Position numbers and translations under genes: made by a program. This document shows positions 1,289 to 39,860 of a stretch of 64,000 nucleotides of DNA, in pieces. Position 1 is the stretch's first letter, and each line of letters opens with the position of its first letter. The DNA comes from Eucommia ulmoides. Taxonomy: Eukaryota > Streptophyta > Magnoliopsida > Garryales > Eucommiaceae. Below the pieces are notes generated by a model. That model worked only from the letters and a program-made list of their open reading frames with translations. It was not told the DNA's origin and ran no database searches. The stretch lies in the NCBI GenBank assembly GCA_016647705.1, contig JAENRU010000432.1, positions 372,001 to 436,000 of the forward strand. The letters are read 5' to 3'.

Positions 1289-3703
1289 GATAATCGGCGA
1301 TTAGTCCTATTTTTAGGGTCTAATTCGCGAAAATTTCTTTCTTATTATTAGGTTTAGATTTAGTCTCTTAAGTTGGATTTCGTTTAAGTTTTAATCCCGC
1401 ATTGCATGAATTCTAGAGACATTGCAAGGATTGTAGGGAACCCTTGGTAAGTAAATTTGATTTTATAGTGAGTATTAGTTACATGTAACGAATATTAGTT
1501 ATTATTGGTGTAAAAAAAAAATGATGAGCACCCATAGTATTGTCTGGGCAGATGGCACATGAGAATTTGTTGGTGACGTAAGAGTGATGAATGGTTGGAC
1601 CCAAGATCGATGAACTTTTAACGCTTTGAAAATCCTCACAATTTGACCCGAGCACCTCGCTAAACTTTGAGATCCTGTTCAAGCTCCAAGCTAAACTTCT
1701 CTCCAGACTCCATTCCGATCTCCGAGCTGAGCTCTAAATTGTACTATGAACACCTGCACAATGGCCTTCCAAGGTTGTGCCTGGTGAGACCTCTCCGGCG
1801 TGAGAGTAAGTATCCGGAGAAAAGGGCTAATAGTGCTCTAGAGTGAGTTAGAAGCAAATACCTTTGGGCATCGGATGCCATGGAGTATTTATAAGATATT
1901 AGTTTCAATTAGTGCCGCGAAATCCGAGAGCCGAGCTCTGTTAATTAACTTAATTCGCCGACAGCTAATAAGCTTGCGGATTAAGGTTTTAAGCACATGG
2001 ACTGGGCTTTTGGGCCCATTTGTAGAGGTCCATGGGCCGACCCACTTGAAATGGATAGTAGTGGCCTGTTTTTAGCTTCTCTGGATGACCCGAAGGTGGA
2101 GAGGGCGTCAAAATGGCTCCAGGAGCTTCAAAAAGGCCTTAAGAAAACCCAGATTTGGAGAATCTGAGTTGAGAGTGCTCAGGCTCGTCAACTCGGTACG
2201 TCGGTCTTCTGGGCGGAATGGGAGGCTCTCCTTTTTGCATGAGTCCGAGCTGAGAGTGTTCAGATACCTCAACTCGGTGCATGTCTTCAATGCCTTAAGA
2301 GGCCCCAGATTTAGAGAATCTGAGCTAAGAGTCCTCGGACTCGCCAGCTCGGTACGGCGGTCTTTAAGGCAAACTAAAAGACTGTCCCTTTTGTATGAAT
2401 TCGGGCTAAGAGTTTTCGGACACCTCAGCTCGACAAATGTCTTCAACCTTCTTGAGAGTCCCCAATCTGAGCATATCCGAGCTGAGAGTGCTCGAGCACC
2501 TCAGCTCAGCCACTGTGGCTTCAAATTTCAATTTTGAGGGTCTTAATTGTGCATATGTCCAGCTGAGAGTGCTCAAGCATCTCAACTCGGCTTTGAGTCT
2601 TGGGTCATATTTGAGACTTTCCAATTCGTAGTCAATCTGAGCTGAGGGTGCTTAGATACCCCAGCTCGGCAAGTTGACTTCCTTATTCATTTGAGACCTC
2701 CCCTTGTATGATGTCTGAGCTGAGGGTGTTCGGACACCTTAGCTCGGTAGCTTGATATCTGGACGACCTGGTGGATGGGCTTGAGATCCCCCCCGTTTTT
2801 GGAGATGTCTGAGTTGAGGGTGCTCGGACACCTCCGCTCGGTAATGTGTACTGAACCATTAACTGAAGGGCCCTATTTTCTTCTTGACCGAGCTAAGGGT
2901 GCCCGAACACCTCAGCTCGACAACTCCTTCTTACTTCGAGTTCTGGAGAAGAAAAAGGTTTTGTGGCTTCCCTTTTTGGATATTATCCGAGCTGGGGGTG
3001 TGCGGACACCATAACTTGGATATTTCTTCACACTTGGCCCGTGGATAGTGTCTTGCTGCTCGTGCGATCTTCATGACCAAATTTCCATACATCAGTTACA
3101 CTCTAATAATAAATTTTTTTTTTTACATATATCTATGTATTTTTTTAATTATATGTACTTATATAATATTAGTTACATGTTACAATTATATATATCTGTG
3201 TAATATTTGTGACATTTAACAAATATTGGATACAAAATTAGTTTAATATTAGTTATATGTATTTGTGTATATTTAGTCACATGTTACTAATTACATGTAT
3301 TTTTCATGATTTTTGTTACATGTACTTATATAATATTAGTTACATGTTACAATTACAAATATATGGGTAATATTTGTGATATTTAATAAATATTGGATAC
3401 ATAAATTGGTTTAATATTAATTACATGTATTTGTGTATATTTAGTTACATGTTACTAACTACGTGTTTTTTGTTACATCTAACAAAATTTTACACACAAA
3501 ATTATTACATGTTACAAAATACAGTAATATTTTTAACATATAACAGAATTTTTACACACAAAATTATTACATGTAACTGTGAGTCTGCAGTACCATGTAG
3601 TAGACTTCTGTCTTTTAAAAATAGGCGAGACTAAAACAAAAGTTCATTTCATCTCTGGGACTTTTTAAAAATTAAAGGTAAAACTGGGGACCTCCCACCA
3701 ATT
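1289..3703 (-). mobile_element. Non-autonomous TIR-like repeat element, SD1 left copy
   Basis: The ends are inverted and similar: the left reads GGATAATCGGCGATTAG and the reverse complement of the right reads GGGGCAATTGGTGGGAG; in the SD1 right copy they are GGGATAATCAGCG and GGGACAATCGGTGGG. Flanks are AT-rich, so a target duplication cannot be called. Inside, reading the minus strand, are an AT-rich repeat zone (about 3140-3590), a GAGCT-rich minisatellite (2085-3060), a TATAAATAC box (near 1890) and a block of moderate GC. No transposase is seen. The TIRs and GGTCC-type subterminal sequence suggest a Mutator-like non-autonomous element. The TATA-bearing block would also suit an LTR, so the class is uncertain. 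Confidence 0.45.
2085..3060. repeat. GAGCT-rich minisatellite
   Basis: Degenerate tandem units of about 60-115 bp share a core like GAGCTGAGAGTGCTCGGAC followed by CACCTCAGCTCGG. Each core is partly palindromic, so GAGCT and AGCTC recur on one strand. The open frames across it on both strands are by-products of the repeat. The same family occurs at 35110-37400 and, in opposite orientation, at 28021-29260. Confidence 0.8.
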
Positions 3704-4059
3704 GCCCCAATATATATATACACAAACACATGAAAAATATACATGTATGAGTTTGGGATATACAGTGGATCTATATATTTATATATAAATATATTTAATT
3801 GATGAAAATTTAATTTAAAATAAATTATAAATTTTATTAAAATATATTTTTAGTATTTCGTTGACTAATAAATTTTATTAATAGTTAGTTAAAAAAAAAT
3901 CTGTAAATTAAATTATTAAGCGATAAGTTTTGCCACTTTAACTATAATATTTTAGTTTGCACAATTAATTCTGGTTTAAGAAAATTGGGTGTTTCTTTTT
4001 AATAGATTTCATATAAAAAAAATTTAGGGATGGGAAATAATGCATTTACTTGTCATGCA

Positions 4060-5122
4060 TTGCATTCCATATTAAATGTATTTAGATAAATTTTTAGGTT
4101 TAGATTCTGTCGTTTGTTGGGTCTTCAGATGACGTCTTCTACTTCAGTTTTTCAACGGTGGTATGACAATAGTGTAATTATAGAGATGAGTGTATTATCT
4201 TCTATATAAATTATCAAACTATTTCTATACTAAATTATTTAAAAAAAAAAAAAAAAAAGATTTATCAAAATGAATAGTGTTAAATGGTTCAAGTAAAATT
4301 TTAATGTGAAAATTGATTTTTGTTGTTATTCTACTATGTCATAGTGTGTGTCCCAATAGAAGAACATGTCATGTATGACATTGTTGGTCTTAACAAGAGG
4401 ACATGTTATGCGTGATGTTGCATGATTCAATAGGAGGGCATGTCCTGCAAGTGTGTGTTGGACCTAACAGGATGACAAGCCCTATAGGTTGTCGGTATAT
4501 GTTATTGAGTATCAGTATGATTTAGTGGTTGATACCACGTGTGTGCTCTACTATTGAAGATATTGAATGACTTTGAAACTAGCAACCCTAGACTGAACAG
4601 GTGTACAAGTTACGGTACCTTCATAATTTCTGATCGTGAGGTAAACGATCTTATAGATAATATGAAAATATGTTTGTGGTATTTTACTATATAAACGTAA
4701 GTTCATCATGTGAGTTAAATTCAGTTGTTTTATTTTGATTATATTTGTGGGATTTGTATACGGCTCAATGTGTGGCTATATTCTGTTTTTTAAAAATGAA
4801 TTATAATAAATGTACTTGATACATAAATTATTTTATATTATGAAGATAGTACACCGATAAAATATTTTATCTCAAATAATCCAACTAGAGATTGATCAAC
4901 TACTGGCATTAAATTGAATTAGAGGGTGGTGTGACTTTTGAGACTGTCAGGGTAGTTATCGGTAATAAGAGGTTAGTCTTTTGTGGATTTGTTGTAGAGT
5001 AATTGTATATGTATAAATAACTTATTTTGGTTGGACAGATAGGAAATGTGGTATGACCAGTATGCAACCCTGAAGTGGTGTGAGTATGTAAAATTTTGGA
5101 AATTTATGTTAATTGTTGGTTA

Positions 5123-5185
<63 letters not shown>

Positions 5186-5273
5186 TATTCATGTTATATT
5201 TGTTGGGTTGGGTAATGTTAAGGCGAGATCACGCTTAGCCTCTAGCATAGGGCCCAGAGTACTGTGTAACACA
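4060..5273 (+). mobile_element. LTR remnant, probably Ty3/gypsy, SD1 left copy
   Basis: This AT-rich stretch ends in a block (5205-5273, ending GTGTAACA) that matches in layout the 3' end of the LTR at 53810-56968. The two also share an internal block around GGTACCTT, GATCGTGAGGT and AAACGATC (4610-4655 here, 56346-56385 there). I read it as the 3' part of an old LTR of that family, older than SD1 because both copies carry it. The start is a guess. No coding parts are visible; a fossil. An (AT)n run lies at 5128-5180. Confidence 0.4.
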
Positions 5274-5732
5274 ATATTTTAAAAACCAGACCGGACTAGC
5301 CGGTTCAACTAGTTAAACTGTCGAACGACTCAGATTTCGGTCCGATTATACCCCTAAAAACTGCTCATCCGATTCAATCGCAAACCGATGAACCGTTCTG
5401 GTTTTCGTCGAACCAGCTGGGTTTTCTTCTTTCCTTATTTGTGTAACTATTTCCCCAAAAAAAAACCTAAAAAAACGTTGCCTTCTCCTCGCCGATCAAC
5501 CGCTGCTGACCATCGCTATCGCCGACGGTGACCTCCATGGTACTGTCATCGCCAACCCATATTTGTGTCGTCATCGTCGAGTTGCAGAGAGAGAAAGACG
5601 TGTAGTGTTTACCTGTGACTATGTGAGAGAGTAGCAGAGGAATTGGGAACAGGGAAGGAGCGACGGCTAGATTAATTGAGTAATTAGGTTAGGTTGCATT
5701 ATATATATATATATATATATTGAAAAGGATAT

Positions 5733-7306
5733 TAGGTTATAGAGTTGTTTACATTTATGGGTCTCAAAAGATATAAAATCACCAATATGGGTCTGGTTTT
5801 AACTTTAATACGAAAATGGGTCTAACCGGCTTTGCCATGACCGGATTCAAATTTATTTTTATTTTTATTTTTTTTCATTTTTTTTTAAAATTGACCGTGA
5901 AATAGTCGTTATTGTTTTTCTTATACAAACTGACCGGTTTGTAAAATGCATGGGGACCTAAAAAAAGCAAGCCCCCACACACCAAAACCCACCCCGTCCC
6001 CAACCCTTGTGGCCCCCCAAACACCCCCCACCTCCCCCCCCCCCCCAATATATATATATATATTTCATTATATTTTTTAAAAAAAAATTAATTCTTAAAA
6101 ACTAAATTAAAATTAATTTTTCTAAAAAATACTATTTCTAAAAATTAATATATTTATCTATTTTTTATTTTTTATTAATTTTCATCAATATAATAATTTA
6201 TTTTTATTTATAACATATTTAAAGATGCTAATTTAAAAAAAATAATAATGAAAAACCCCAATTTACCGTCTCCCTCTCCCACTTACTCCCATTTTTTTTT
6301 TCCAATTTCAAATATGTTTCTAATTTAATTTTAAAAATTATAGACACTCAAAAAAAAATTATTAATTTTTAAGTAAATGTTATTTTTAAAAAATAAAATA
6401 TTTTATATTTAATTTCTTAAAAGTTGATATTTTCAAATTAATAATTTTAAAAAATCGAATTTAAACAGAAAATTACTAACTAATTCGATTTCAGTCATGT
6501 AAGATGTGATTCAAAAAATATTTTCACCTAAAAAAAAATAGATATGATAACACTACTTATCAGACTGAAATCGAATTAGTAAGTGATTTGATTTAGAAAA
6601 TTTGTTTCAATTTGACATTTTAAAATTATTAATTTGAAAATGTCAACTTTTAAGAAATTAAATAGAAAAAATTTTATTTTTTAAAAATAAAATTTATTAA
6701 AAATTAATTATTTTTTTTGTGTCTATAACTTTTAAAATTAAAATTAAAAACATATTTGAATATGGAGAAAAATGAAAGTAAGTGAGACAGGGAGATGGTA
6801 AATTGGGTTTTTCGTTATTATTTTTTTGAAAAATCAATATATTTAAATATGTTATAAATAAAAATAGATTATTATATTGATTAAAATTAATAAAAAATTA
6901 AAAATAGATAAATATATTATTTTTTAGAAATGATATTTTTTAGAAAAATTAATTTTAATTTAATTTTAAGAATCTGATTTTCAAAAAAAAATAATGATAT
7001 ATATATATATATATTGGGGGGAGGTGGGGGATGTTTGGGGGGCCCGCAAGGTTGGGGGTGGGTTGGGTTTTGGTGTCAGGGGCTTGCAGTTTACAAACAG
7101 GCGGTTTCACGGCCGGTTGTATAAGAAAAACAATACCGGCCGTTTCACGGCCAGTTTTAAAAAAGACAATGAAAAAAAAATAATAAAATTTGAATCCGGC
7201 CGTAGTAAAATCGGTTAGACCCATTTTCATATTAAAGTTAGAAATGAACTCATATCTCGGTGATTTTATATCTTTTAAGACTGACAAATGTAAGCAACTC
7301 TAGGTT
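5733..7306. mobile_element. 1.57-kb palindromic foldback element
   Basis: Nearly the whole element is one inverted repeat: the sequence from about 5733 to 6490 is matched by the reverse complement of 6545 to 7306, leaving a loop of about 55 bp. The outer ends read TAGGTTATAGAGTTG and, inverted, TAACCTAGAGTTG. Each arm contains a cytosine-rich (left, 5985-6047) or guanine-rich (right, 7015-7065) tract and a GGCCGT-rich motif. There is no open frame of note. This is the structure of a foldback or MITE-like DNA element that would form a long hairpin when single-stranded. I see no clear target duplication. The right copy of SD1 has it truncated (40132-41492), and SD2's second copy keeps only the end of the right arm (16963-17260). 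Confidence 0.75.
7015..7065 (+). other. Guanine-run tract with G-quadruplex potential
   Basis: Successive guanine runs of about 6, 5, 6, 3 (2 here), 5 and 3 lie within 50 bp next to an (AT)n hairpin. The same tract is at 16968-17020 and 41440-41492, and in cytosine orientation at 5985-6047 and 40370-40478. Both the left end of SD2 and the right end of SD1 fall in or beside it. Quadruplex formation is inferred from base composition only. Confidence 0.6.
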
Positions 7307-7574
7307 ACATATACATATATGTAAGCCATCTAGGATTTTTGTGCGCACAAGAATTTTAATTCAATGGATACAAAAGAGAAAAGGGTAATATTGCAAGTGG
7401 TCCTCGAAGTTTGGTAGTCTGCCAAATTCATCCTTAAAAGTTTCAGTATTAGTCAAGGTCTGTCTTTTTTTCCAATTACAGACTTACAGTGCCTTCGGAC
7501 ATTTTTATTTTGAGCATTGTTTGGAATAAAGATTTAAATATTTTAATTTCAAATATTTCAATTTAACTGGTGAA

Positions 7575-7612
<38 letters not shown>

Positions 7613-8381
7613 CGTCACCGATTCAACCACGGTTCGCCTACCAATTGAACCGATGACTTTTCCAGTTCGACGTCCGTTCTGGTTTTAAAAACATTGGATC
7701 ACTGTGACAGGGTGTTGGTGACCGACGGGTGGTGGTGATCGGAGGGGTGGTAGTAGGAATAATTTTACGGGAGTGAATAAGAATCAACATTTTTTTTTGT
7801 TTCTCATATTCTTTAGGAATTCAAGAAATATTCCCAAAATTTTGAAAACAAAATTGTATGTACCAAACGCGTTTCTGTACATTAATACCAAAATTTTAGG
7901 AACGTGAACATAAATTAGGGAACAAAAACACTAACCAAATGGGGCCTTAATGTTTCTGTTTTTCTGGTTCTACTCCCAATAAAATTGTACGAAAATCTGT
8001 TTCCATTCTGTAGTAGTCTAAGAACAAAATCGTCTTTGCTAACGCTAATATTAATTATTATCTTAAAACATCAAATTAATAAGAATGAATTTCAAAATAT
8101 TATATTAATTAATGAAATTTTATTTATTTATTTTATTGACACAAGTCACCCCCTTCTAATTAAGTTTACATGGCGAGAAGTTGCCTCTCACATTTTTCAT
8201 TAATTGTGGTCTAGAAGTTTGGTGTTTCTATTTATGGACGGAAACAACCTTGTTTGTACCTTTACAATTGAATTGCCAATTGACCCTTTCCTACTTCAAT
8301 TATGGCATTCAGAAATTAGTCACAATCTCAAATTAATTTTGAGATGAGAAAGGGATAATGATAAAATTTATGACAAATTTA
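7306..8381. other. AT-rich non-coding stretch in SD2 copy 1
   Basis: No gene is visible. It holds an MITE-like end (GGGTAATATTGCAAGTGGTC near 7384), an (AT)n run at 7573-7609, an element end containing AAAACATTGG-type sequence near 7690-7702, and CCAAACGCG-type TIR sequence near 7865. The same content recurs at 17260-18334. Confidence 0.4.
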
Positions 8382-9184
8382 GTGTCGTTTGATAACCGTT
8401 TCGTGTCCATCTCATGCAGTGGGATGGGAATGAGATGGAAAAAAATGATAATTTTGTTTCTTTCTTGGGAATATAATCGCTTTTTTAAAAGATTCTTTTT
8501 TTTTCATTTTTTTTTTTTTTGGAATAGAATAACGTTTAGTAATGATTTTATCCTAAAAATCAAGAATGAACCCCAAGTCACAATCAGCAATCGAATTCTA
8601 AACCACAATCAAGAAATCATCAAATATTCAAACCCTAAACCACAATCGAAATCGAAATCGAAATCCTAAACCCTAATCGAAATTGAACCCTAAACCCCAA
8701 TCGAAATCGCTGTTTTCATTTTGAAATCGAAACCAAGTAGACGATGAACACGGTTAAAGAAGACGACAACGGTTGAACACGGTTGAAGAAGACGATGAAC
8801 ACAGTTGAAGGTGACGAACATGGTCAAAATCGAAACCCTATAAGCAGACCAAATCGATGACGACGGAAGACGCAAAGAAGACGACAACGACGAATGACGA
8901 TGACAAACGTGACGGATGAAGAAGAAGACGGCAACGATAAACGTGATGAATGATGATCATTGAGGACGACGAAGGTGACAAAGGTGATGGAGGTAATGAA
9001 GGTGATCGTGGTTTTTTTTTGTTGTTGGGAATGACTTTTTTTTTTTGTTCGGAATGGGATGGGAAAAGTTAGAAACAAAAAAAATTTGTTTCTCATTTCT
9101 ATACAAAAAGTGGGATGGATTCTCATTTGGGAGTGGAATGAGAACGGAAACAAAAAAGTGAGATGGATTACCAAACGCTATGCC
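8382..9184. mobile_element. MITE-like TIR element in SD2 copy 1
   Basis: The left end reads GTGTCGTTTGATAACC and the reverse complement of the right reads GGGCATAGCGTTTGGTAATC. Subterminal regions on both sides carry GGGATGGGAATGAGATGG-like sequence in inverted orientation. The interior is purine-skewed with GAC/GAA triplets that open long frames on the opposite strand; I treat these as non-coding. Ends of this form suggest a hAT- or Harbinger-like MITE. The copy in SD2 copy 2 is at 18335-19138. Confidence 0.55.
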
Positions 9185-9258
9185 CAAAAATAAACGTATC
9201 CCAAAAATATGTCAAAAATCTTATTAGTTTTTAACGTATCCCAGATTTTTAGAAAATA

Positions 9259-9290
<32 letters not shown>

Positions 9291-11751
9291 TATTTTTAAA
9301 TATTTAAAGAGGGTTTTTTTATTTTTTAAAACGCTGATTTTCTCGTAAATAACTCAAGTCAATTTTAGAAAAAAGAGTCGTCACCTAATACTGAATTTAA
9401 ATAATAAAGTTCTTTACACAATAATTGTATTTTTTTAAAAAAATTACTAACAATGGGTGCTATTTATCTTATTTACCAAACGCGAGTATGTGTTCTAAAT
9501 CCCGGTGTTTCGAACACCGGGATCAATAATATATATATATTTTTTATTATTTTATTGATGTTGGCGTTGTGAACGCGAAGATCAATAATAATTTTTTTTT
9601 TTTTTTTTTTTTCACGGTCAAACGGCATGGGCCGTTTCACAACCAACACAAGAGAGAGGAGAGAGACCCAAGTCACCCAAGTGAGGGGCAGGGACTAATT
9701 CACTCGTAGGGATTTTTAACACTTTATACCCTAAAGTTAGAATGTTATTAATAAAGAATTTTTTACACTTTTTTTACACTTTATTAATAAATGATTTTTG
9801 ACACTATTTTTATTTTATTATTTATTCAATTCAAAACTATCCTTTTGTATCAGATTCATCATGCATAACTTTTTAAAGTGTTTGTGATTTGAAAAATAGT
9901 TGCTTGAATCAAATTGTGAACCCATGCTATGTAATAGCTATCTTAACATGAAACAAGGAGGTCAAAGTAGAGGAAAGTTCGATGAAAGAAAGGAGAAATA
10001 AAATAAATTTTACTGCATGGGTTTGGAGTATGTTTGGCAAACACTGTATGAGATTTTGGTTTAGGGTATGTTGGGTTTATCCTACATCGGATGTGGAAGG
10101 GACGGGTGGTGAAATTATAAGTGTGAGGGAAAGACTCAGCTCATGACCTAACGTTTGGGGTTATGAGAGGCACAAGCCTATTTTTTCTTTTTCGTTGTTG
10201 TTGCATCTTCTTTTTTGGTGAGAAAAATGTGGCATTCCTTCAGAAAAATATAATCCATGCAATAAAGTTATTTTCGTAAAGTTTATACTTTACTTTTCAC
10301 TGTTCTCTACTTTCCACAACTATCCTGCCAAAAAAATGGAGACAATAAGAATTGGAACAAATGGAAGCCCAATGTCCCACTATTTTGACCCCACCAAAGT
10401 AACAATGAAAACATTACAAATTAAAGTAGTCAAACCAGTTTGTGCATATCTGAAAGCAACAGATAACGTAGAAGAACACAAGTCAAACCAAATCAGTTCA
10501 TTTTTCCAATTTTTATATTCACTTGTTTGTCATCAAACATAAACGGACACAAGAGATTCATCAAAAGTCAATAGGGAGTTTCTCTCGGCACCAGAGGGCA
10601 AATGCTCGTGCCTCTTCAATGACCTCGTTAAAAATCGTATTGAGCAGCTACAACTTATGCTAGAGTTATTATATCTTATATTATTAAGGGTAGAATAGTC
10701 TTTTACTCTCTTTGCTTGTAAGCGGCTAATAAGGAGTGGCAATCAACAAACTTATGCATTTGGTAGATTATGCAAGGATGCAATGCAGATTACATGGAAG
10801 ATGATGCTTTTAGAGGCCTTTAGTCTTCATGATTACTTCTAGTTCTAACCGGCTATCTTAAACCGCTGAATAAATTTATCCAGGAAAAACCAAAAAATAT
10901 TAGCCTTGACCCATAAAGAGTGCCCTCATATTCTCCCAGAGAAACACCTAAGCTCTTCTTAGATTAGTGAATTCATAATCATGAGTTGCATCCCCATTTA
11001 AAATTCAGTTATCTTAATTTGTCGGTCACTAGTTAAAATAGACACCGCCAAAACTTAACTTTCAGTAATAAAGAAATTGCCGAAAGATTAGACTTCTTCA
11101 AACAAAATAATGTTGTCTTCAAAAAAGGCATTTGTATCATTTTTCATTTATCTTTTTTTGTTGTGAACATTGTTTCATTATAACTGGTAGACTTCCACTG
11201 AATCCTGCCATAAAGCACCCATTGTTATGAAGTACAGTAACTTAGAGGAGATATTACTGAACAAGGTTATTGGTTTCAATATAACAACGAATAGCGCAAT
11301 TTCTAATATGATGCATTCGATTAGATTTAAGGTTATGTTGTTCATTCCGAAATCAGACATATTGGTATTTGCTATATACAAAATTCCTTAATCCTAACCG
11401 AATTCTATACCAATTTATATCAATTCGATCAAACTAAACAGCCACTTTCACTTTGGATCTATCAAGAGCTAAATTCATGTAATTTATCAAAATAATAGTC
11501 AGCTTTTAGAATCTATAGAGAACAAGACTAACATCAACACAAAATCAAACCGTATTCAATGTCACAGTAAGCAATGAATCCAAATCTATTAAAAATCCTG
11601 CCATAAGAAGTAAGCTAATGAACATATAAAGCTAGCAGATCTTCAATCTAATTAGCCATCTCATACTCGAAAGTTAACCGCTAGCATAGAAAAACAGACT
11701 TAAAATTACGAACCTCAAATCTCAAATCAAATGAAATCGAAAACGACTTAC

Positions 11752-11874
11752 CTGAACTGAAGCTTGGGGCAAACGATTCTCAGCTGAAGCGATCGCAGTA
11801 GCTGCAGCGCTTACAGTCTCCAAAGCGGTGTTCACGCTTCTCATATCTCCATTCGCTCCTCTCATCATCTCCAT
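11752..11874 (-). CDS. First exon of a hydroxyproline-rich glycoprotein family gene (partial)
   Basis: The ATG at 11874-11872 opens 41 codons that run into a canonical donor (CAG then GTAAGT) at 11751. The peptide contains MRSVNTALETVSAAATAIAS then AENRLPQASVQ. This closely resembles the conserved N-terminus of plant proteins annotated as hydroxyproline-rich glycoprotein family (Arabidopsis At5g52430-like), where the next exon starts with a tryptophan-rich KRRWGSCW-type motif. I could not find that exon on the minus strand down to 9830, so the gene is probably cut by the block boundary or has a longer intron than is left here. An internal ATG at 11844 is an equally good start by family comparison. 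Their molecular function is not established. Recognition is from memory of the family. Confidence 0.6.
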
Positions 11875-13036
11875 ATCAAGAAAACAAACAATTCAACTGA
11901 TTTACAGCCAGAAATCTTCGTTCCATTCACCAATCTCAGCAATTTCTAATCAAATCTCCCGAGAAAAAAAAAAATGCAACGTGCTCGAGCAAATCAAAAT
12001 CTTCAGAAACAAAAATGGAGGACAAAATCACAGTAAACAAACAAGTTTCCAGTAGAAGAAATCGATTCACGGACTTATGCATAAGCAAAACTGCAAAATC
12101 AAATCTCTCTCCAGCACTGCATATGGTCCAACAATGCAACCGTCGTTTATGAGGTCAAACACGGCAGTGATTACCGAAGCGTTTAAAGTTTTCTTTTGGA
12201 GTTTAATATTTATATATTCATATATCGATGAAATGACTAAAATAGCCCTGGTGGCATAAAATTTAGAGTAAGATAGATTTTCCGTATTTAAAGACATTAT
12301 ATCGATTTTTAAATTTATATATTTATATATATATATCGGAAACTAAAATAATACAAAATCTAATTAAATTCAACCGCTTTCTGCGAAATTTTTAAACTAT
12401 AAATTTTCTTTTTAAATATTTCCTCAGATCATCTCAATCATCAATTGTCCTCAAATCGTTAATTAAAAAAATATTTTAGAAAAACATTATGATTTATAAT
12501 AAACTAGGGATACTCCGTAGCTAAAGTCACCTTATAAATTTAGATAGAAAAAAAAGGGACTGTATCAGAACTTTGAGGTCAGTGGAGCGGTAGATTTAAA
12601 TGGAAGAAAAATTGGTGGTTAAGACGTGTAGAGAAGTAGGGATATGCAGCCAACCCGCACTGCAATAAACCCATCCAAGAGTCAGGAACCCGCGCAATGA
12701 GTGGGGTGATTCGCAGGTATCTGTTTCTTGAACTAAGGGAGACTGGCGAAAAGAAGTTTGATGTGAATAGCGAGAAATTGTAGAAATTTTAGGAGATGTA
12801 ATATTTTTTAACCCAATTTCTAGTTTTGTTGGATTATGGATCAGATCGAGTCTACTCATGGATCTACCACGTGAGTCCAAAATTTCATGACCAGTTACCA
12901 TGTGAATACTCTTGATCTTGAAAAACATGTTTATTCGATAAACATCCATCGAAAATGACACAACTTTTCGGGATCTCTTTATAAATATGCATTGAGACAT
13001 TTAAATTATCTAAACCTACTGAATTACAGAAAATTC
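11875..13036. other. Spacer upstream of the glycoprotein-family exon
   Basis: Presumed 5' UTR and promoter of the exon at 11752-11874 followed by AT-rich spacer. A 134-codon frame on the minus strand (12596-13000) has no recognisable family and is treated as chance. Nothing else is visible. Confidence 0.3.
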
Positions 13037-13492
13037 AGGTGGCCTGTTGTGTTTGGATAAGAGATTTTTTTTTTTTGGAGGGGGGGGGGGGGGAGATTTG
13101 ATTTGGGTAAAGGATTTTAAGAGTCTCTTTTTGACAAATATCTTGTTTGGCTATTTATGAGAAATGATTTGTAAAATTCTTTCAATTAAAAAATAGTAGT
13201 GAATGAGAGATATGGAAATCCTTTCAAATTAGGTGTCATTTACAAATTTCTCCAATGAGGAATTTTAGATCCGACAGCCGCCTTCGGCCGCCGCCGACAG
13301 CTGACCACCTCCACCGGCCGACCGTCGACCACCACTGCCACAGGCCGCCAGGCGCCAACTGCCTCCGTTTGCTAACCATTGCCGCCTACTGCTGTTGTTG
13401 TCCACCGTCACTGACCCCCACAGTGGTGATGATGGTCATCCCTTCATTAACAAATCTTTTAAATTTGTCAAATCTCATACCCAAACGCAACT
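13037..13492. mobile_element. MITE-like TIR element
   Basis: The left end reads GTTGTGTTTGGATAAGAGAT and the reverse complement of the right reads GTTGCGTTTGGGTATGAGAT. About 455 bp long; the interior has a 16-guanine run at 13079 and a GC-rich CCG-repeat segment (13265-13440). No coding potential beyond short proline/arginine-type frames from the CCG repeat. Ends of this type suit a hAT- or Harbinger-like MITE. Confidence 0.6.
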
Positions 13493-14019
13493 TCACTTTT
13501 TTCTTTTTTTTTTGGTTATGTTAATAAGGGTAATTTTGTCATTAGAAGAAAACCAATACTATTTAAAAGGCATTTTAAAAGTTTAATGTAATTATATCTC
13601 TATTGTTTTTACCAAGAACCTTTGGTTGTGTCGAAAAAGTCCCCCACGTGCGGTTTATTCCCCTTTTCCCAATGGATTTCGTGCGCACCCGCTGCGTAAG
13701 ATTGGCCCTACCATGAAAGTTCCCCCCTTTTCCCACCACTCGAGGCTAACATGCACGGTTGGTTCATCAAATTTCCCACATAATTAGCATTAAAATTATA
13801 ATTTGTTATTTGTTATTTTATGTTTCATTAAAATAATAATTCAAAATATATTCTTTCATATTCAATAAATTACTTTCCATGAATTAATAATGATGTGGGG
13901 GTAAATTAGCATCGTCGTCTATGTGCTACGAGAAGGCTCACGGCTAAATCTACGTGACAGGTTATCTAAATCTGTTAAAAAATCTAAAATCCGCCTTTCA
14001 TATATTTGAGATAATTACA

Positions 14020-16000
14020 ATGGGAATTCGTCTTTCATATATTTAACATTTGAGATAAGCGGATGTTAAAATTCAAAATTCTACGATTTCGAGTTTTTCA
14101 TAAAAGTAACATAATCAGAATTGTTTCGATCAATTTATAACCTTTCAAAATTTCACAATTTTTAGTTTTTGATCAATCGCTTCGTTATAGCATTGAAAAA
14201 AAAAAGATTTTGAGTATTTCATAAAAGCTGTAAAATCTAATTTTTTCGGTGAGATAATCTTTCAAAATTTCACGATTTTGAGTTTTTGATCAATTGCTTC
14301 ATTTACTCTAAAAAATGAGCTATAACCTTGTATAATTCCATGATTTTGAGTTTTTTTTTTTTTTTTTTTTTAATAAAAGTAGCAAAATCAACTTTTTCGG
14401 TGAATTATAGTCTTTCAAAACTTTACAACATTGAGTTTTTTACCAAATGCTTCTATTACTCTATAAAATTATACTGTGGCATAATATTTGCGAAATCCAA
14501 TTTTTTTAAGCTATAACATTGACAATCTCCACGATTTTTTAGTTATTTTATACATATAGCGAAATCAAGTTTCATATTAGCTTATAGCCTCTCAAAATTT
14601 TACGATTTTAATTTTTTTTATCAATTTCTTTGTTAACTATATGGACTGATATTTTGTCATAAAAGTAGTGAAATCATGTTTGTTTGTTTTTTTCGTGAGC
14701 TTTAGTCTTGCAAAAATTTTACATTTTTTTATTTTCTAGTAAAAGTAGCAAATACGAATATTTTTGGTGAGATAAAATCTTTCAAAATTTCATAGTTTTT
14801 AGTTTTTAATCAATTGTTTTCGTTACTCTATAAAATGATAATGCGGCATAAAAGTAGCAAAATCGAATTTTATTTTTATTGTTTACGATGATGAGAGAAT
14901 CTTTTACGATAATTTAGACATTTGTAAAGAAGATCCATTGAAGCACTAGTGAACAAATGTGCTTTCGTTCAAGTGTGAGGGACTACAAGATGAAGAGATA
15001 AACCTAAGAAGATCTGGGATGAGACTATTAGAATTGATGATATGATATTAAACTTAACCGAAGGAATAACCCTTGATCGATTAAGCGAATTCATGTATCT
15101 GACCCCACTTAAAAGGAAACAAAAGCTCAGTTGTTATTGTAATCTTTCAAAATTTTACGATTTTATAAGGGGGTTTTTTTTTATTATTTTAAAAGTAGGA
15201 ATTTTTTTTTCCCGGTGAGGTATAATTTTTTAAAATTTCACGATTTTAATTTTTTAACCAATTACTTCTATTACTTTATAAAATGATATTATGAAATAAA
15301 ACTAGAGAAACGAATTTTTTTGTGAGCTAAAATCTTACAAAATTCCACTATTTTCAAAAAAAAATTCAAAATAGTGAAATTGAAATTTTTTGCATGAGTT
15401 ATAGCCGCACGATTTTAAATTTTTTATCAATTGCTCTCTCTACTATATAAAATGATGTTGTGACACAAACGTAGTGAAATCGTGTTTTTTGATGAGCTAT
15501 ACCTTTGCAAATTTCTATGGTTTTTAGTTTTGTTTTTTTTTTTTTTAAATGAAAATAGCAATTTTTTTATTATTTATTTATTTTATTTTTTTAAACATAA
15601 CCTTTTAAAATTTCATGATTTTGAATTTTTTTATCAATTAATTCCTTTATAAATGATATCGTGGCTTAAAAATAGTAAAATCAAATGTTTTGTGCGCCAT
15701 ATCCTTGAAAAATTGTAAATTTTTTCATAAAGGTAGCAAAAACTGATTTTTCGATGAATTATAACTTTTTCAAAATCTCTCGATTTTAAATTTGTGATCT
15801 CTATAAAATAATGTGGTGGAATAAAAGTTTGGGAATCGAATTCTTTCGTCAGCTCTAGCCTTATAAAATTTCACAAATTCGATTTTTTGATAAATTATTT
15901 ATGACATAGATTTTTTGATCGATTGCTTATAAAATAATATTATGGCATAAGAGTTTTGAAATCTTCTTCTTCTTCTTCTTCTTTTCTTCTTTTTCTTTCT

Positions 16001-16033
<33 letters not shown>

Positions 16034-16470
16034 ACCTATAACCTTACAAAATTTCAAGATTTAGATTTTTTTTTTTAAATAACAAAATTGATTTTTTTTT
16101 TCCGATGAAACATAATCTTTCGAAATTTCATGATTTTAAATTTCTTTTCAATTGTTTCTTTATTTTTATAAAACAATATTGTGAGAGAAAAATAGCAAAA
16201 TTTATGAACCATAGCCTTAAAAAATCCACGATTTTGAATTTATCATAAAATAGTGAAATCTGGTCATCTGGTTTTTTGTGAGCTCTAATCTTTTACAATT
16301 TTGAATTTTTGATCAATTGCTTCTATTGCTCTATAAAATAATATATATCGTGTAAAATTTCACAATTTCAAGTTTCCATACAAATAGTGAAATCAGATTC
16401 TCGTCTTTAAAAATTTCACGATTTTTATTTTTTTCCAGTTAAATTTTTTCATTTCGAATTGCACAAAAAA
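14020..16470. repeat. Degenerate AT-rich satellite, about 100-150 bp period
   Basis: A phrase like CAAAATTTCACGATTTTGAG, then TTTTTGATCAATTGCTTC, then an AAAATGATATTGTGGCATAA-type block and AAAAGTAGCAAAATC recurs some 20 times with heavy divergence and variable spacing. An insertion of non-repeat sequence sits at about 14890-15135. Long poly-T and (CTT)n tracts occur (15960-16033). There is no coding potential. An old decayed tandem array. Confidence 0.75.
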
Positions 16471-16630
16471 TGTAGCCTCTCATTATTGTAATCAAGACTT
16501 TATTAGCACCTTATAAGTAAGAGTTAATTGACATTATTCCCACACAAAAAAAAAAAAAAACAAGGAAAAAACTCCATTTCAAATTAACACAACCAAAAAC
16601 AAACCTTCCTCAAACCTACCTTACACTCCC

Positions 16631-16755
16631 GGAGCCGTTTAAACCGCCAAGCTCTTCAATTCGATCTCAAACACGAACCTTCCCCTCCCGGAGTCGTTTA
16701 AACCGCCAAGCTCTTCGACGCAATCTCAAACACATTCTCCGAGAGTCCATTGGCG
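16631..16755. repeat. 62-bp tandem duplication over a stop-codon region
   Basis: Two adjacent copies share the blocks GTTTAAACCGCCAAGCTCTT and ATCTCAAACAC. The right copy contains the end of the terminal exon at 16698-16778, so the last ten or so codons and the stop have been duplicated just downstream of the real end. Confidence 0.7.
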
Positions 16756-16778
16756 GACACGATCATCTCCAACTGCGC
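16698..16778 (-). CDS. Terminal exon of an unidentified gene (partial)
   Basis: After a pyrimidine tract and acceptor (TTTTACAG at 16786-16779) the frame reads [20 protein letters not shown] then SKSLAV and a TAA stop at 16700-16698. The other two frames stop early. The amphipathic composition and the clean acceptor look like the C-terminal exon of a real protein, but I do not recognise the family. Upstream exons would lie to the right of 16778 and are replaced by SD2 copy 2 after about 184 bp, so this is a severed gene end. Confidence 0.4.
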
Positions 16779-16962
16779 CTGTAAAAAAATATTTTTCACA
16801 AATACCGAATATTATAAACACACACTAGCATATACCAGGTTAATATCTTACAATTAGTTCAAATACATCGATCATGAAAAACCATTTTGTTGAGAGTATG
16901 TATCATTAGATGGTCAAAAAAATCTCAAATGTAACAAGTCCTGATTTATAAAATATATATAT

Positions 16963-17527
16963 ATATTGGGGGGAGGTGGGGGATGTTTGGGGGGCCCGCA
17001 AGGGTTGGGGGTGGGTTGGGTTTTGGTGTCAGGGGCTTGCAGTTTACAAACAGGCGGTTTCCCGGCCGGTTGTATAAGAAAAACAATACCGGCCGTTTCA
17101 CGGCCAGTTTTAAAAAAGACAATGAAAAAAAAATAATAAAATTTGAATCCGGCCGTAGTAAAATCGGTTAGACCCATTTTCATATTAAAGTTAGAAATGA
17201 ACTCATATCTCGGTGATTTTATATCTTTTAAGACTGACAAATGTAAGCAACTCTAGGTTACATATACATATATGTAAGCCATCTAGGATTTTTGTGCGCA
17301 CAAGAATTTTAATTCAATGGATACAAAAGAGAAAAGGGTAATATTGCAAGTGGTCCTCGAAGTTTGGTAGTCTGCCAAATTCATCCTTAAAAGTTTCAGT
17401 ATTAGTCAAGGTCTGTCTTTTTTTCCAATTACAGACTTACAGTGCCTTCGGACATTTTTATTTTGAGCATTGTTTGGAATAAAGATTTAAATATTTTAAT
17501 TTCAAATATTTCAATTTAACTGGTGAA

Positions 17528-17565
<38 letters not shown>

Positions 17566-19212
17566 CGTCACCGGTTCAACCACGGTTCGCCTACCAGTTG
17601 AACCGATGACTTTTCCAGTTCGACGTCCGTTCTGGTTTTAAAAACATTGGATCACTGTGACAGGGTGTTGGTGACCGACGGGTGGTGGTGATCGGAGGGG
17701 TGGTAGTAGGAATAATTTTACGGGAGTGAATAAGAATCAACATTTTTTTTTGTTTCTCATATTCTTTAGGAATTCAAGAAATATTCCCAAAATTTTGAAA
17801 ACAAAATTGTATGTACCAAACGCGTTTCTGTACATTAATACCAAAATTTTAGGAACGTGAACATAAATTAGGGAACAAAAACACTAACCAAATGGGGCCT
17901 TAATGTTTCTGTTTTTCTGGTTCTACTCCCAATAAAATTGTACGAAAATCTGTTTCCATTCTGTAGTAGTCTAAGAACAAAATCGTCTTTGCTAACGCTA
18001 ATATTAATTATTATCTTAAAACATCAAATTAATAAGAATGAATTTCAAAATATTATATTAATTAATGAAATTTTATTTATTTATTTTATTGACACAAGTC
18101 ACCCCCTTCTAATTAAGTTTACATGGCGAGAAGTTGCCTCTCACATTTTTCATTAATTGTGGTCTAGAAGTTTGGTGTTTCTATTTATGGACGGAAACAA
18201 CCTTGTTTGTACCTTTACAATTGAATTGCCAATTGACCCTTTCCTACTTCAATTATGGCATTCAGAAATTAGTCACAATCTCAAATTAATTTTGAGATGA
18301 GAAAGGGATAATGATAAAATTTATGACAAATTTAGTGTCGTTTGATAACCGTTTCGTGTCCATCTCATGCAGTGGGATGGGAATGAGATGGAAAAAAATG
18401 ATAATTTTGTTTCTTTCTTGGGAATATAATCGCTTTTTTAAAAGATTCTTTTTTTTTCATTTTTTTTTTTTTTGGAATAGAATAACGTTTAGTAATGATT
18501 TTATCCTAAAAATCAAGAATGAACCCCAAGTCACAATCAGCAATCGAATTCTAAACCACAATCAAGAAATCATCAAATATTCAAACCCTAAACCACAATC
18601 GAAATCGAAATCGAAATCCTAAACCCTAATCGAAATTGAACCCTAAACCCCAATCGAAATCGCTGTTTTCATTTTGAAATCGAAACCAAGTAGACGATGA
18701 ACACGGTTAAAGAAGACGACAACGGTTGAACACGGTTGAAGAAGACGATGAACACAGTTGAAGGTGACGAACATGGTCAAAATCGAAACCCTATAAGCAG
18801 ACCAAATCGATGACGACGGAAGACGCAAAGAAGACGACAACGACGAATGACGATGACAAACGTGACGGATGAAGAAGAAGACGGCAACGATAAACGTGAT
18901 GAATGATGATCATTGAGGACGACGAAGGTGACAAAGGTGATGGAGGTAATGAAGGTGATCGTGGTTTTTTTTTTGTTGTTGGGAATGACTTTTTTTTTTT
19001 GTTCGGAATGGGATGGGAAAAGTTAGAAACAAAAAAAATTTGTTTCTCATTTCTATACAAAAAGTGGGATGGATTCTCATTTGGGAGTGGAATGAGAACG
19101 GAAACAAAAAAGTGAGATGGATTACCAAACGCTATGCCCAAAAATAAACGTATCCCAAAAATATGTCAAAAATCTTATTAGTTTTTAACGTATCCCAGAT
19201 TTTTAGAAAATA

Positions 19213-19244
<32 letters not shown>

Positions 19245-19789
19245 TATTTTTAAATATTTAAAGAGGGTTTTTTTATTTTTTAAAACGCTGATTTTCTCGT
19301 AAATAACTCAAGTCAATTTTAGAAAAAAGAGTCGTCACCTAATACTGAATTTAAATAATAAAGTTCTTTACACAATAATTGTATTTTTTTAAAAAAATTA
19401 CTAACAATGGGTGCTATTTATCTTATTTACCAAACGCGAGTATGTGTTCTAAATCCCGGTGTTTCGAACACCGGGATCAATAATATATATATATTTTTTA
19501 TTATTTTATTGATGTTGGCGTTGTGAACGCGAAGATCAATAATAATTTTTTTTTTTTTTTTTTTTTTCACGGTCAAACGGCATGGGCCGTTTCACAACCA
19601 ACACAAGAGAGAGGAGAGAGACCCAAGTCACCCAAGTGAGGGGCAGGGACTAATTCACTCGTAGGGATTTTTAACACTTTATACCCTAAAGTTAGAATGT
19701 TATTAATAAAGAATTTTTTACACTTTTTTTACACTTTATTAATAAATGATTTTTGACACTTTATTTTTATTTTATTATTTATTCAATTC
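16963..19789. repeat. SD2 copy 2: 2.8-kb near-identical direct repeat
   Basis: Matches 7010-9830. It starts abruptly inside the (AT)n and guanine-run part of the palindrome's right arm, without the rest of the palindrome, and runs on naturally into the complete foldback element at 19360-21784. Contents mirror copy 1: end of the palindrome arm (to about 17260), an (AT)n run (17532-17563), an MITE (18335-19138) and the left arm of the foldback (from 19360). Confidence 0.93.
18335..19138. mobile_element. MITE-like TIR element in SD2 copy 2
   Basis: The same element as at 8382-9184, with the same ends (GTGTCGTTTGATAACC and inverted GGGCATAGCGTTTGGTAATC). Its copies differ only by a thymine-run length change near 18966. 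Confidence 0.55.
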
Positions 19790-21784
19790 AAATAATAAAA
19801 AAAAATCAAAAAAATATTTATTTTATTATTTATTATATCATGAAAATTATTTTTATCAAATTGAATTTTTAGTTGACCGAATGGGATATCTTGTCGACTA
19901 AATTGAATTTGGCCGACCAAATTCAATTTTTAGTCGACTGAATTGAATTTTTGGTCGACCAAATTGAATTTTTGGTTGACACATCCAGTCGATCAAATTC
20001 AATTTTTAGTTGACTAAATTGAATTTTTGGTCAACCGAATGGACATCCTTTAGACCAAATTCAGGATGTCCCATTCAGTGGACCAAATTCAATTTGATCG
20101 ACCAAAAATTCAATTCAGTCAACCAAATTCAATTTGGTCGACAGGATGTCTCATTCGGTCAACCAAAAATTCGATTTGGTCGACCAAAAAATTGAATTTG
20201 GTCGACAGGATGTCCTATTCGGTCGTTCAAAAATTGAATTCGGTCGACCAAATTGAATTTAGTTGACAGGATGTCCCATTCGTTTGTTCAAAAAATTAAT
20301 TCGGTCGTCCAAAAATTGAATTTCGTCGACAGGATGTCTCATTCGGTCGACCAAAAAATTGAATTTGATTGATAGGATGTCTTATTCGGTCAACCAAAAA
20401 TTCAATTCGGTCGACCAAATTCAATTTGGTCGATAGGATGTCTCATTCGGTCATCCAAAAATTGAACTCGGTCGACCAAATTGATTTTGGTCGACAGGAT
20501 GTCCCATTCGGTCATTCGAAAAGTTCCATTCGGTCGTCCAAAAATTGAATTTGGTCGACCAAATTGAATTTGATCGACATGATGTCTCATTCAGTCGACT
20601 AAATTCAATTTTTGAACGACCGAATAAGACATCCCGTCGACCAAATTTAATTTGGTCAACCGAATTGAATTTTTGGACTACTAAATTGAATTTTTGGATG
20701 ACCGAATTGAATTTTTGAACAACTGAATAGGACATTCTGTCGGCCAAATTCAATTTTTTGGTCAACCAAATTCAATTTTTGGACAACCGAATTGAATTTT
20801 TGAACAATCGAATGGGACATCCTGTTGACCAAATTCAAATTTTTGGTCGACCGAATTGAATTTTTTGTTGACCGAATGAGACATCCTATTGACCAAATTG
20901 AATTTGGTCGACCGAATTGAATTTTTGGTCGACCAAATGGGAAATTCTGTCAACCAAATTGAATTTAGTCGACTGAATGGGATATCCTGAATTTGATCTA
21001 CAGGATGTCCTATTCGGTGGACCAAAAATTCAATTCAATCGACAAAAAATTGAATTTTGTTGACCGGATATCCCGACCAAAATGATTCGATTGACCAAAA
21101 ATTCAATTCGGTTGACCAAAAATTCAATTCAGTTAACTAAATATTGAATTTGGTCGACCAAATTCAATTTAGTCGACAGGATGCCCTATTCGGTCAATCA
21201 AAAATTCAATTTAGTAAAAATAATTTTCATGATATAATAAATAATAAAGTAAATATTTTCATCAAAATTTTTTATTACTTGAATTGAATAAATAATAAAA
21301 AAAAAATAAAGTGCCAAAAATCTTTTATTAATATAGTATAAAAAAAAGTGTCAAAATTTTTTTATTAATAACATTCAAACGGTTTAAAGTGTTAAAAATT
21401 TCTATTTGTGAATTAGTACCTGCCCCTCTCTCTCTCTCTCTCTCGGTTGGGTGACTTGGGTCTTTCTCCTCTTTCTCTTGTGTTGGTTGTGAAATGGCCC
21501 ACACCGTTTGACCGGAAAAGCAAAAAAAAAAATATTATTAATGATCCTAGCGTTCACAACGCCGAGATCAATAAAATAATAAAAAAATATATTATTAATC
21601 TCAGAATTGACAACGCCGGGATCATTCAAATAAAAATATATATATATATATATTATTGGTCCCGATGTTCGGAACACCGAGATTTAGTGAACACCGGGAC
21701 ACTCGCGTTGCATTTGGTAAATAAGATGAATAGTACCCGTTGCCAGTAATTTTTTTTAAAATACAATTACTATGTAAAGAACTC
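19360..21784. mobile_element. Mutator-like foldback element with a tandem-repeat core
   Basis: Long inverted arms (about 19360-19862 and 21226-21784) begin with AAGTTCTTTACACAATAATT on the left and, inverted, AGTTCTTTACATAGTAATTG on the right. The flanks carry a near-perfect 9-bp direct repeat, TTAAATAAT (19351-19359) and TTAAATGAT (21785-21793), and the paralogous site near 59965-59975 is uninterrupted. Long TIRs with a 9-bp target duplication are the hallmark of Mutator-like elements. Each arm also carries a smaller hairpin (CCGGTGTTTCGAACACCGG at 19457-19475). The centre is a 1.35-kb array of short repeats with no transposase, so the element is non-autonomous. Its left arm alone is repeated at 9407-9830 by SD2. 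Confidence 0.75.
19863..21225. repeat. Array of short GTCGAC-bearing repeats
   Basis: Dozens of units of about 16-24 bp built from TTCAATTTGGTCGACC and its reverse complement, separated at intervals by variants of GACATCCTGTCGAC or ATGGGACATCC. Units occur in both orientations, and each GGTCGACC is itself a palindrome. The asparagine, serine and phenylalanine-rich frames seen on both strands follow from the repeat. The array is the core of the foldback at 19360-21784; I know no family with this unit. Confidence 0.85.
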
Positions 21785-22198
21785 TTAAATGATGTGCTCG
21801 ATCATTGGATTTTTTTTAAAAATAATTTGAAAATGACTTAAGTAAAATTTTCACTCCAAAAGCACAGTCCAATCAAAATTTCGTTTTAAAAAGGTTCCGT
21901 AGAATTCTCATATGAATTTGTCAATAATCTTGTTAGTTTTGTTTTTTTAATTATTATTATTATTATTATTATTATCATCATTATTATTATTTTCTCTACG
22001 AAAACCTTTTTTTTTTTATATAATTATTTTGTATTTGATTTTTTATTTTATTTTATTCCACGAAAAATTATAATTTTGATAGTCATTTATGTGGTTCGCC
22101 AAAACTTAATTTTGATTTTCTATTTTAAATTCTGAAAAATATAGTAATTTGTAAAATATATTAATAAATGTTTTTTTTTTTTTGGGATCAATAGGGAT

Positions 22199-22625
22199 GG
22201 TTGAATCCCACATCGCTTGTGTTAGCTGATCTTGAATTATATATAAAGCCAAGGGCAATCCTCTTCTTACAAAGCGTCTTTTGAGAGTGAGTTAGGCCCA
22301 TTGAATTTCTACAAGGTATCATAGTCAGGCTTTGTCTGATGTTGGGCGTGTTAAATCCCACATCAATGATGGGCCCCCGAATCCATTTGCAGTGGTTTGT
22401 CAAAGTCTACCATGCGCGTAAGGAGGCGTATTGAATCCCACATTGATGTTAGATCTCCCGATATCCGTTCCCAGAGGTTTGTCAAAGTCCACCCTACACG
22501 TGAAGTGGCATGTTGAATCCCACATTGCCTATGTTACCTGATCTTGAGTTATATATAAAGCCAAGGGCAATCCTCCTCTTACAATGCGTCTTTTGAGAGT
22601 GAGTTAGGCCCATTGAATTTCTACA
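22199..22625 (+). mobile_element. TRIM (miniature LTR retroelement) downstream of gene A
   Basis: Two direct terminal repeats of 115 bp (22199-22313 and 22511-22625; ends TGTTGAATCCC and TTTCTACA) flank about 200 bp with a primer-binding-like GGTATCATAGTCAGG directly after the left one and no coding sequence. The 5-bp target duplication GGGAT is at 22194-22198 and 22626-22630. The interior has its own degenerate 90-bp tandem repeat. An equivalent element sits at the same place beside gene D (60377-60802), so it predates SD3. It looks structurally whole for a TRIM, though it encodes nothing. Confidence 0.8.
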
Positions 22626-22866
22626 GGGATTATCCCAAATTGTGAAATTAAAGTTAATTATAGTATCTCATATCAACCAATTACCACTAAAAATTATGTA
22701 TTTTGGTATAAAAAAAATATATATTTAAAAGCAAGAAAAAATTGATCCAAAAATATTTCTAACTCCACCAAAATAAAATTGGCAACCACAAAATAAATCT
22801 CCAAGAAGAATATATCCACTTGTAAGAGGATCAATACCTTCTGATCTAAAAGATCAATACTGAAAT

Positions 22867-22872
22867 TTTATT
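22867..22872 (-). terminator. Poly(A) signal of gene A
   Basis: AATAAA on the minus strand about 40 nt past the gene A stop codon; the same signal and spacing occur downstream of gene D (near 61078-61083). Confidence 0.5.
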
Positions 22873-22910
22873 CTAATTGATTATTTTTTTTTTATATGAA
22901 AAAAAAAAAT

Positions 22911-32128
<9,218 letters not shown>

Positions 32129-32323
32129 GATCAGATAAACAGCAAAAACAGAGCACAGCACAGAGAAACAAAGGAAGAAGTTTGAAACTGGAATTACACT
32201 CTTTTGCCGTCAGGTTTTGAAGGGGTCAATTGCCATTATTGAAACTGTAAAACTTTTGAATACCAAGTTTCGTGTTTATAAGATTAATTATGACAACGAT
32301 AGGGAGCCAGTAGCGCAAGAAAT

Positions 32324-33595: not shown

Positions 33596-34282
33596 TTTTG
33601 GAGTATGCATGAGCATGAACAGCAATTATATAATTACACTTAGCGCCCTCCAACTATACTCCACTTTTCAATTTAATCTTTAAACTATCAATTTGACAAT
33701 TGTGTCAAATTGATTGTTTAGGTGGCGTTGAATAGGTGGCATTTCTGTTTTTTTATTTCTAATTCTAATAAACTGAGATAAAAATTGTTTTGGAGTGTTC
33801 CGAGAATAAAAACATGTTTGGTAACGATTATTCTCCTTAAATTCTTTTAAATTATGAGGAAAAAAAAAACACGTTTGGCGACAACTTATGGTGGTTGGCG
33901 GAGTGGTGATGGCCGGCAAGGTGTGTAAGATCCAATTTTGCATGTGAATATTTTTAATTGTATTTTTTAAAATTTAAAAAATATTTGGCTTCATTGTCTT
34001 ATTTTAAAATTTTTAAAGATTATTATAATATTTAAAATTTAATTTTAAAAATTTTAGGGATTAATATTTTAATTTTAATCTAATTTTCAAAAGTTTAAAG
34101 GTTATTATGTTATTTGAAATATAGTTTTAAAAAAATTAGAATATAATTAATATATTTATTATTTTTTAAGACATTTTGTGTAAATATTAAAAATAAAATA
34201 GAGCTGTGTGAAGACATCACAATTTTGGTGTTGTATCTTTGGTGCATCACACATGTTACTTAAAAAATATATATATATATAG

Positions 34283-39465: not shown

Positions 39466-39538
<73 letters not shown>

Positions 39539-39820: not shown

Positions 39821-39860
<40 letters not shown>

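Follow-up and report, generated by a model that had tools for sequence, protein, structure and literature searches.

A near-identical 2.8-kb direct repeat around an inverted 7.1-kb copy of a same-contig locus in Eucommia ulmoides

In cancer genomes, cycles of templated insertions have been described in which a copy from elsewhere is inserted and the return to the host locus re-replicates a host segment (Li et al., 2020, PMC7025897). For plants, a wheat paper (PMC3445842) describes gene-bearing filler DNA in double-strand-break repair, a review (PMC7407515) summarises rice insertions of 10–1000 bp as duplications from asymmetrical nicks, and maize alternative transposition is described as giving re-replication and composite insertions with joins at transposon ends (PMC4270019). 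For vertebrate repair-mediated duplications, a table legend in PMC2671141 gives microhomology of 2–9 nt and target site duplications of 4–21 nt. The locus described here lies in a 64,000-nucleotide stretch of the Eucommia ulmoides genome, hereafter the window (C64:372001–436000, + strand, where C64 denotes the contig holding it). A segment of ∼2.8 kb, designated A, stands there twice in direct orientation around a block, designated B, so that with the outer flanks X and Y the product reads X-A-B-A-Y. This arrangement is explained, with moderate confidence, as a two-junction cycle of templated insertion by replication-based template switching in a single event. Coordinates are those of the window unless prefixed C64, and the sample is a single assembly of 947 Mb in 391 contigs, of which C64 makes up 1,187,500 bases. 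Genome searches were scored for the best 40 of 8,111 candidates with A as the query, 40 of 6,294 with the block and 40 of 3,788 with the donor gene, and the absences reported below apply to those scored candidates.

Every component of the arrangement is already known, and no claim is made that a plant case of such geometry is absent from print. As in the cancer cycles, a distant segment appears to have been copied in and a host segment re-replicated, although the cycles in PMC7025897 are somatic tumour events, whereas the present case lies in an assembled plant genome, where the donor shares the contig at a distance of ∼364 kb and 2.8 kb is re-replicated. The locus resembles plant gap patching and gene movement (Wicker et al., 2010, as cited in PMC3445842) in that gene-bearing filler leaves a displaced gene fragment; however, PMC3445842 links gap patching to the insertion of transposons and to filling-in at target site duplications, whereas at this locus 2.8 kb is duplicated and transposons are broken internally. 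Flanking duplication together with ectopic inserts is shared with the patch-mediated tandem duplications of rice (Vaughn & Bennetzen, 2014, as cited in PMC7407515), which at 10–1000 bp in that review differ in size from the 2.8-kb duplication and 7.1-kb insert. A donor copied into a break with short microhomology is likewise the pattern of vertebrate repair-mediated duplications, in which, however, the target duplications given in PMC2671141 are 4–21 nt rather than 2.8 kb. Maize alternative transposition shares kb-scale re-replicated segments, some with short-homology joins, but its junctions are described as lying at transposon termini (PMC4270019), and such termini are absent from the junctions here. 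Comparable insertions with re-replicated flanks have been described in tumours (PMC7025897), and this locus offers an apparently recent plant case that can be read base by base. Its value lies in that apparent recency and in its completeness (donor, target, both microhomologies and ancestral flanks), and it is directly testable in related accessions.

The two copies of A, copy 1 at 7001–9835 and copy 2 at 16953–19792 (both + strand), are 99.72% identical over 2,840 columns in the self-BLAST, with 3 mismatches and 4 gaps totalling 5 gap columns. The base alignment places the substitutions (copy 1/copy 2) at 7109 (A/C), 7621 (A/G) and 7644 (A/G), and the indels as 1 bp at 7049, two 1-bp poly-T differences near 9011 and 9591, and 2 bp near 9805; two dinucleotide runs within A (32 and 24 bp) are equal in length in both copies. 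The remaining repeat pairs of at least 1 kb listed for the window by self-BLAST are at most 90% identical, and an allelic copy of A was not seen: among the best 40 of 8,111, no other match spanning most of A exceeds 83% identity. The near-identity of this 2.8-kb pair is not a matter of chance. The base-by-base comparison bears out the direct repeat reported in the first-pass annotation, whose limits were off by no more than 10 bp; on the left, the true limit falls inside an (AT)n run. It also agrees with that annotation in cutting copy 1 on its right inside a foldback arm (430 bp in) and copy 2 on its left inside a palindrome (∼300 bp in). On their other sides, copy 1 runs on leftwards into ancestral sequence and copy 2 runs on rightwards into a complete foldback element.

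Between the copies, block B (9836–16952, − strand) is matched end to end by C64:752954–760786 in inverted orientation, three stretches jointly covering all 7,117 bp, and the gap between the nearest edges of block and donor is ∼364 kb. The block had been called foreign at first, wrongly, since it is an inverted copy from the same contig, and the genome search proposed at that time for its source locus leads to C64:752954–760786. An origin as organelle DNA was dropped after the donor had been found on the same contig. None of the other block matches among the best 40 of 6,294 is full-length: apart from one related but partial copy near C64:740 kb, they are short dispersed repeats. The donor is ∼720 bp longer than the block in an AT-rich part, and the corresponding AT-rich region of B (13901–16341), made of short degenerate repeats, accounts for the majority of the sites at which block and sampled donor differ. 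Beside the donor, 10.5 kb or more has been duplicated in tandem (C64:730001–740544 and C64:743368–753918, 95–96% identical, 13.3-kb step), the second unit of which has its right limit inside the stretch copied into the block.

The direction of copying is indicated by an open reading frame (ORF) pair. What is read as exon 1 of the donor gene is an ORF lying, with its upstream region, in the block (11725–11892, − strand; MEMMRGANGDMRSV...), and an identical ORF stands at C64:758730–758897. The ORF taken as exon 2 (KRRWGSF...) is found at the donor only, at C64:760891–761787, ∼100 bp beyond the final base in common (760789), and behind it stands an ORF with a citrate-transporter domain (Pfam). 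The gene model is drawn from these ORFs, which are presumed to be exons of one gene from a putative likeness to Arabidopsis At1g76660. Because the exon-2 ORF lies just past the copied stretch and at the donor only, this ORF-based model makes the donor the source, of which the block is a truncated copy. Of the 28 ORFs of 55 aa or more in the block, 4 were searched against Pfam and none scored above the cut-off (one weak match, 13.7 bits vs 34.3), and the donor ORF taken as exon 2 gave no family. No near-identical second place was seen for the donor gene (best 40 of 3,788) or for A beyond its two copies (best 40 of 8,111), and therefore the arrangement does not resemble an uncollapsed haplotype pair.

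Palindromic elements stand at both ends of A. Element 1 (5742–7300; 5733–7309 with its direct repeats TAGGTTATA at 5733–5741 and TAGGTTACA at 7301–7309) is intact at the left of copy 1. Element 2 (19360–21784; 19351–21793 with TTAAATAAT at 19351–19359 and TTAAATGAT at 21785–21793) is complete at the right of copy 2. The palindromes extend over 5740–7302 (81% self-complementary) and 19481–21597 (78%) in the self-BLAST, and the 9-bp direct repeats carry one mismatch each (TAGGTTAyA for element 1, TTAAATrAT for element 2). The two elements are alike at one end each (GAGTTGTTTACA and GAGTTCTTTACA). Both combine long inverted repeats with a ∼9-bp target duplication, as Mutator-like foldback elements do, and both look like ordinary foldback transposons of that kind, the family name being our assumption. 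Element 2 is one of a dispersed family, whose copies are 72–83% identical (matches to positions 2399–2821 of A, among the best 40 of 8,111). Its first 430 bp recur at 9406–9835 (+ strand; the same sequence as 19360–19792, with the direct repeat starting at 9397), where the block cuts it. Since element 2 survives entire next to copy 2 but is severed next to copy 1, it is older than the cut.

The outer flanks of the repeat may be compared with relatives of the locus. The window holds two large diverged units, stretches in 587–7064 resembling 33596–41491 and stretches in 21785–27921 resembling 59968–64000 (85–90% identity, self-BLAST). A paralogue on contig C139 continues on either side of the left limit of A at 7001, and the second window unit, near 41.4 kb, crosses that limit for 63 bp, its match ending at 7064. 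On the right, the first arm of element 2 (9527–9834) pairs with 21279–21597 in the self-BLAST. Empty sites were seen for element 2 only: one in the second window unit (59968–59976, + strand), where a single TTAAATGAT remains and the flanks of the element lie adjacent as they would have before its arrival, and another near C64:347.8 kb, both paralogues joining the sequence left of 9405 to the sequence right of 21785. Because of the paralogues, the arm pairing and the empty sites, the X-A and A-Y joins are ancestral and the A-block and block-A joins new, so that a single 2.8-kb segment was duplicated around the insert. Neither new join was seen elsewhere (best 40 of 8,111 for A and best 40 of 6,294 for the block). 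The surroundings contain an ORF (30818–32209) with B_lectin, S_locus_glycop and PAN_2 domains (Pfam), a set that we take to be a mark of plants, and thus point to a plant receptor-kinase cluster. The two window units appear as this cluster in tandem, with further relatives on C64, C101 and C139.

Both new joins carry short homology, as in microhomology-mediated template switching, although the left one is weak alone. At the A/block junction, A ends in TTCAAA where the donor has GGAAAACTATCC, giving a 3-bp AAA microhomology (9833–9835, + strand), whereas the block/copy 2 junction lies on a 14-bp (AT)7 run (16953–16966, + strand), which is also the overlap of the BLAST ends. Among 400,000 random joins drawn between the window (minus the block and copy 2) and C64:730–790 kb, overlaps of at least 3 bp arise in 7.1% and of at least 14 bp in 0.003%, and therefore the right join follows homology. 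Both limits of A are structure-prone, the left falling in an (AT)n run of a palindrome arm and the right in a foldback arm, and structure-prone sequences such as palindrome arms and (AT)n runs hinder forks. The block ends show neither inverted repeats nor Helitron ends by eye.

In the favoured explanation, A, lying between two older foldback transposons in the receptor-kinase cluster, would have undergone two rounds of replication in a single event. A fork, whether of replication or of repair, having copied A, would stop in the foldback arm at 9835, switch through the 3-bp microhomology to the inverted locus ∼364 kb away and copy 7.1 kb there, and then return at the (AT)7 run. As this run lies 2.8 kb behind the place that the fork had left, A would be copied a second time; the opposite direction of copying fits equally. 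Template switching by a fork is favoured because of the 2.8-kb step back, the homology-led return and the structure-prone nature of both limits. As expected of such a cycle, the inserted segment is a copy of which the donor is still in place (C64:752954–760786 with the exon-2 ORF), and the return lies behind the departure, with the host segment re-replicated in direct orientation (two copies of A between ancestral outer flanks). The located source, those flanks and the microhomology at both junctions support the kb-scale target duplication around an insert that was suggested at first pass. Of the two routes named there, template switching explains the data best, and staggered-break repair with filler DNA is its main rival. 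We infer a single event, made by a fork rather than by end-repair of a staggered break, from a donor haplotype other than the assembled one. The case would show one route by which a gene start and its upstream region can enter a receptor-kinase cluster. A further proposal, which we hold to be doubtful, is that the paired related foldbacks act as fork barriers, their long arms stopping forks at both ends while the stretch between is re-replicated during the visit to a distant template. If so, foldback elements would promote templated copying of gene fragments without transposing, and other paired foldbacks of this genome should carry the A-B-A signature.

As to timing, just 3 substitutions in ∼2,835 sites (0.1%) separate the copies of A, whereas the block and the sampled donor differ overall by 125 in 7,002, with 20 gaps. 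Along the block the counts are 0/2,444 in 9836–12280, 12/190 in 12281–12480, 4/1,401 in 12481–13900, 87/2,036 in 13901–15970, 10/331 in 15971–16341 and 12/600 in 16342–16952, a difference of 2–4% over the right 3 kb. The left 2.4 kb agrees with the divergence of the A copies (p = 0.25). The patch at 12281–12480 may mark a haplotype or conversion boundary. In a three-way comparison over 16010–16966, the block matches the 753-kb donor at 46 of the 57 sites that separate the candidates and the 740-kb relative at 11, with 10 further sites differing in the block alone, which contradicts an origin of the block's right end from the C64:740-kb relative. The template was probably another haplotype of the donor locus that has the left 2.4 kb in common with the assembled one. 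Alternatively, an older insertion followed by later conversion is possible, with conversion needed at two places. If the rate is taken as 7e-9 per site per generation, the A copies would have separated some 10^4 to 10^5 generations ago, a figure that might be lower still, given microsatellites of equal length. The earlier description of the event as very recent is right for the two copies of A and for the first 2.4 kb of B from the left, but not for the whole block against the sampled donor.

Several points weigh against the favoured explanation. The divergences fit one date in part: those of the A copies and of the left of the block agree, whereas outside the left 2.4 kb the divergence of the block from the sampled donor departs from that of the A copies with a Fisher p of ∼7e-23. 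A single event from the exact sampled donor predicts equal divergence, and therefore either another template haplotype or later conversion must be added. The left 3-bp join could be chance, its overlap being unremarkable alone. Outgroups place the 1-bp deletion at 7049 and the G to A change at 7621 in copy 1, and 7644 likewise by 2 of 3 outgroups, so that the placeable derived changes are all in copy 1 (7109 is unclear), although they are too few for use. The C139 paralogue is without ∼40 bp (7003–7044) exactly where copy 2 starts, and its match to A stops at 9194, which makes it uninformative on the right-hand join. The absences, as stated, are those of the scored candidates, and the sequence of the product is the same for a fork and for two-ended repair.

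That last point leads to the strongest rival, patched repair of a widely staggered double-strand break, which we regard as possible but unlikely. Nicks on opposite strands 2.8 kb apart would leave both ends carrying A, the donor would be copied by strand invasion, and the copies would then be joined, giving the same geometry and microhomology at both joins. Such patching is described for plants in PMC7407515 and PMC3445842; nevertheless, the 2.8-kb duplication exceeds the 10–1000 bp given for rice in PMC7407515. Long single-stranded gaps would also have to survive, and one limit of the duplication falls on 14 bp of donor homology, which the choice of a template explains better than the position of a nick.

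An assembly error, in which a chimeric or haplotype-merged contig yields a false A-B-A, is improbable, even though 2.8-kb repeats and palindromes assemble poorly and some of the indels are homopolymer lengths. The copies of A differ by 3 substitutions, and copy 2 is backed by 3 of 3 outgroups at 7621 and 2 of 3 at 7644. The 125 differences between block and donor argue that the block is not a stray piece of the assembled donor, and both the lack of a near-identical second A or donor gene among the scored matches and the microhomology at the junctions speak against an artefact. A little less probable again is that a circular DNA carrying A and B, made elsewhere by a similar template switch, entered the ancestral A by homologous recombination. 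This would yield X-A-B-A-Y exactly, and a crossover within A would be seamless, but it requires one extra step, and no separate A-B junction was found among the scored matches (best 40 of 8,111 and best 40 of 6,294). We consider two separate events very improbable, whether a tandem A-A followed by insertion of the block at the A/A joint or an older insertion followed by homogenisation of the A copies by gene conversion. They would account for the greater divergence between block and donor than between the A copies, but the block would have to strike the A/A joint exactly, or else an old insertion would have to leave 0 substitutions in the left 2.4 kb, which it does not predict.

Transposition, whether with A as a long terminal repeat, by a gene-carrying Mutator-like or Helitron element, or by re-replication through alternative transposition of both foldbacks, is barely credible: a gene fragment was captured, and related foldbacks at both ends of A recall the setting of the duplications and composite insertions of maize (PMC4270019), but the cuts lie 430 bp and ∼300 bp inside the elements with none at a transposon end, the ancestral flanks show that A is not a terminal repeat, and the block has no inverted repeats or Helitron ends by eye. 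Among the specific candidates tried, the long terminal repeat was rejected because paralogue homology passes the left limit of A and its ends read ATAT... and ...TTCAAA, a Helitron or gene-carrying Mutator-like element for want of such ends by eye, and a composite insertion of the maize alternative transposition type because its junctions should lie at transposon termini. Unequal recombination between cluster units was likewise discarded, as the units did not appear among the best 40 of 6,294 as carriers of the block and homology at the joints amounts to just 3 and 14 bp.

Three further features of the window were noted. A 353-bp inverted pair with one mismatch (52256–52608 and 54271–54623) lies amid copia-like ORF pieces (44–58 kb; labelled copia by eye). 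A repeat array with a spacing of ∼100 bp and two open frames occupies 28018–28712 and is found too at C64:436.1–436.8 kb. Finally, G strongly exceeds C in 54001–57000, where two 2-kb steps have skews of 0.33 and 0.39, all other values in the table of the window lying between −0.19 and 0.17.

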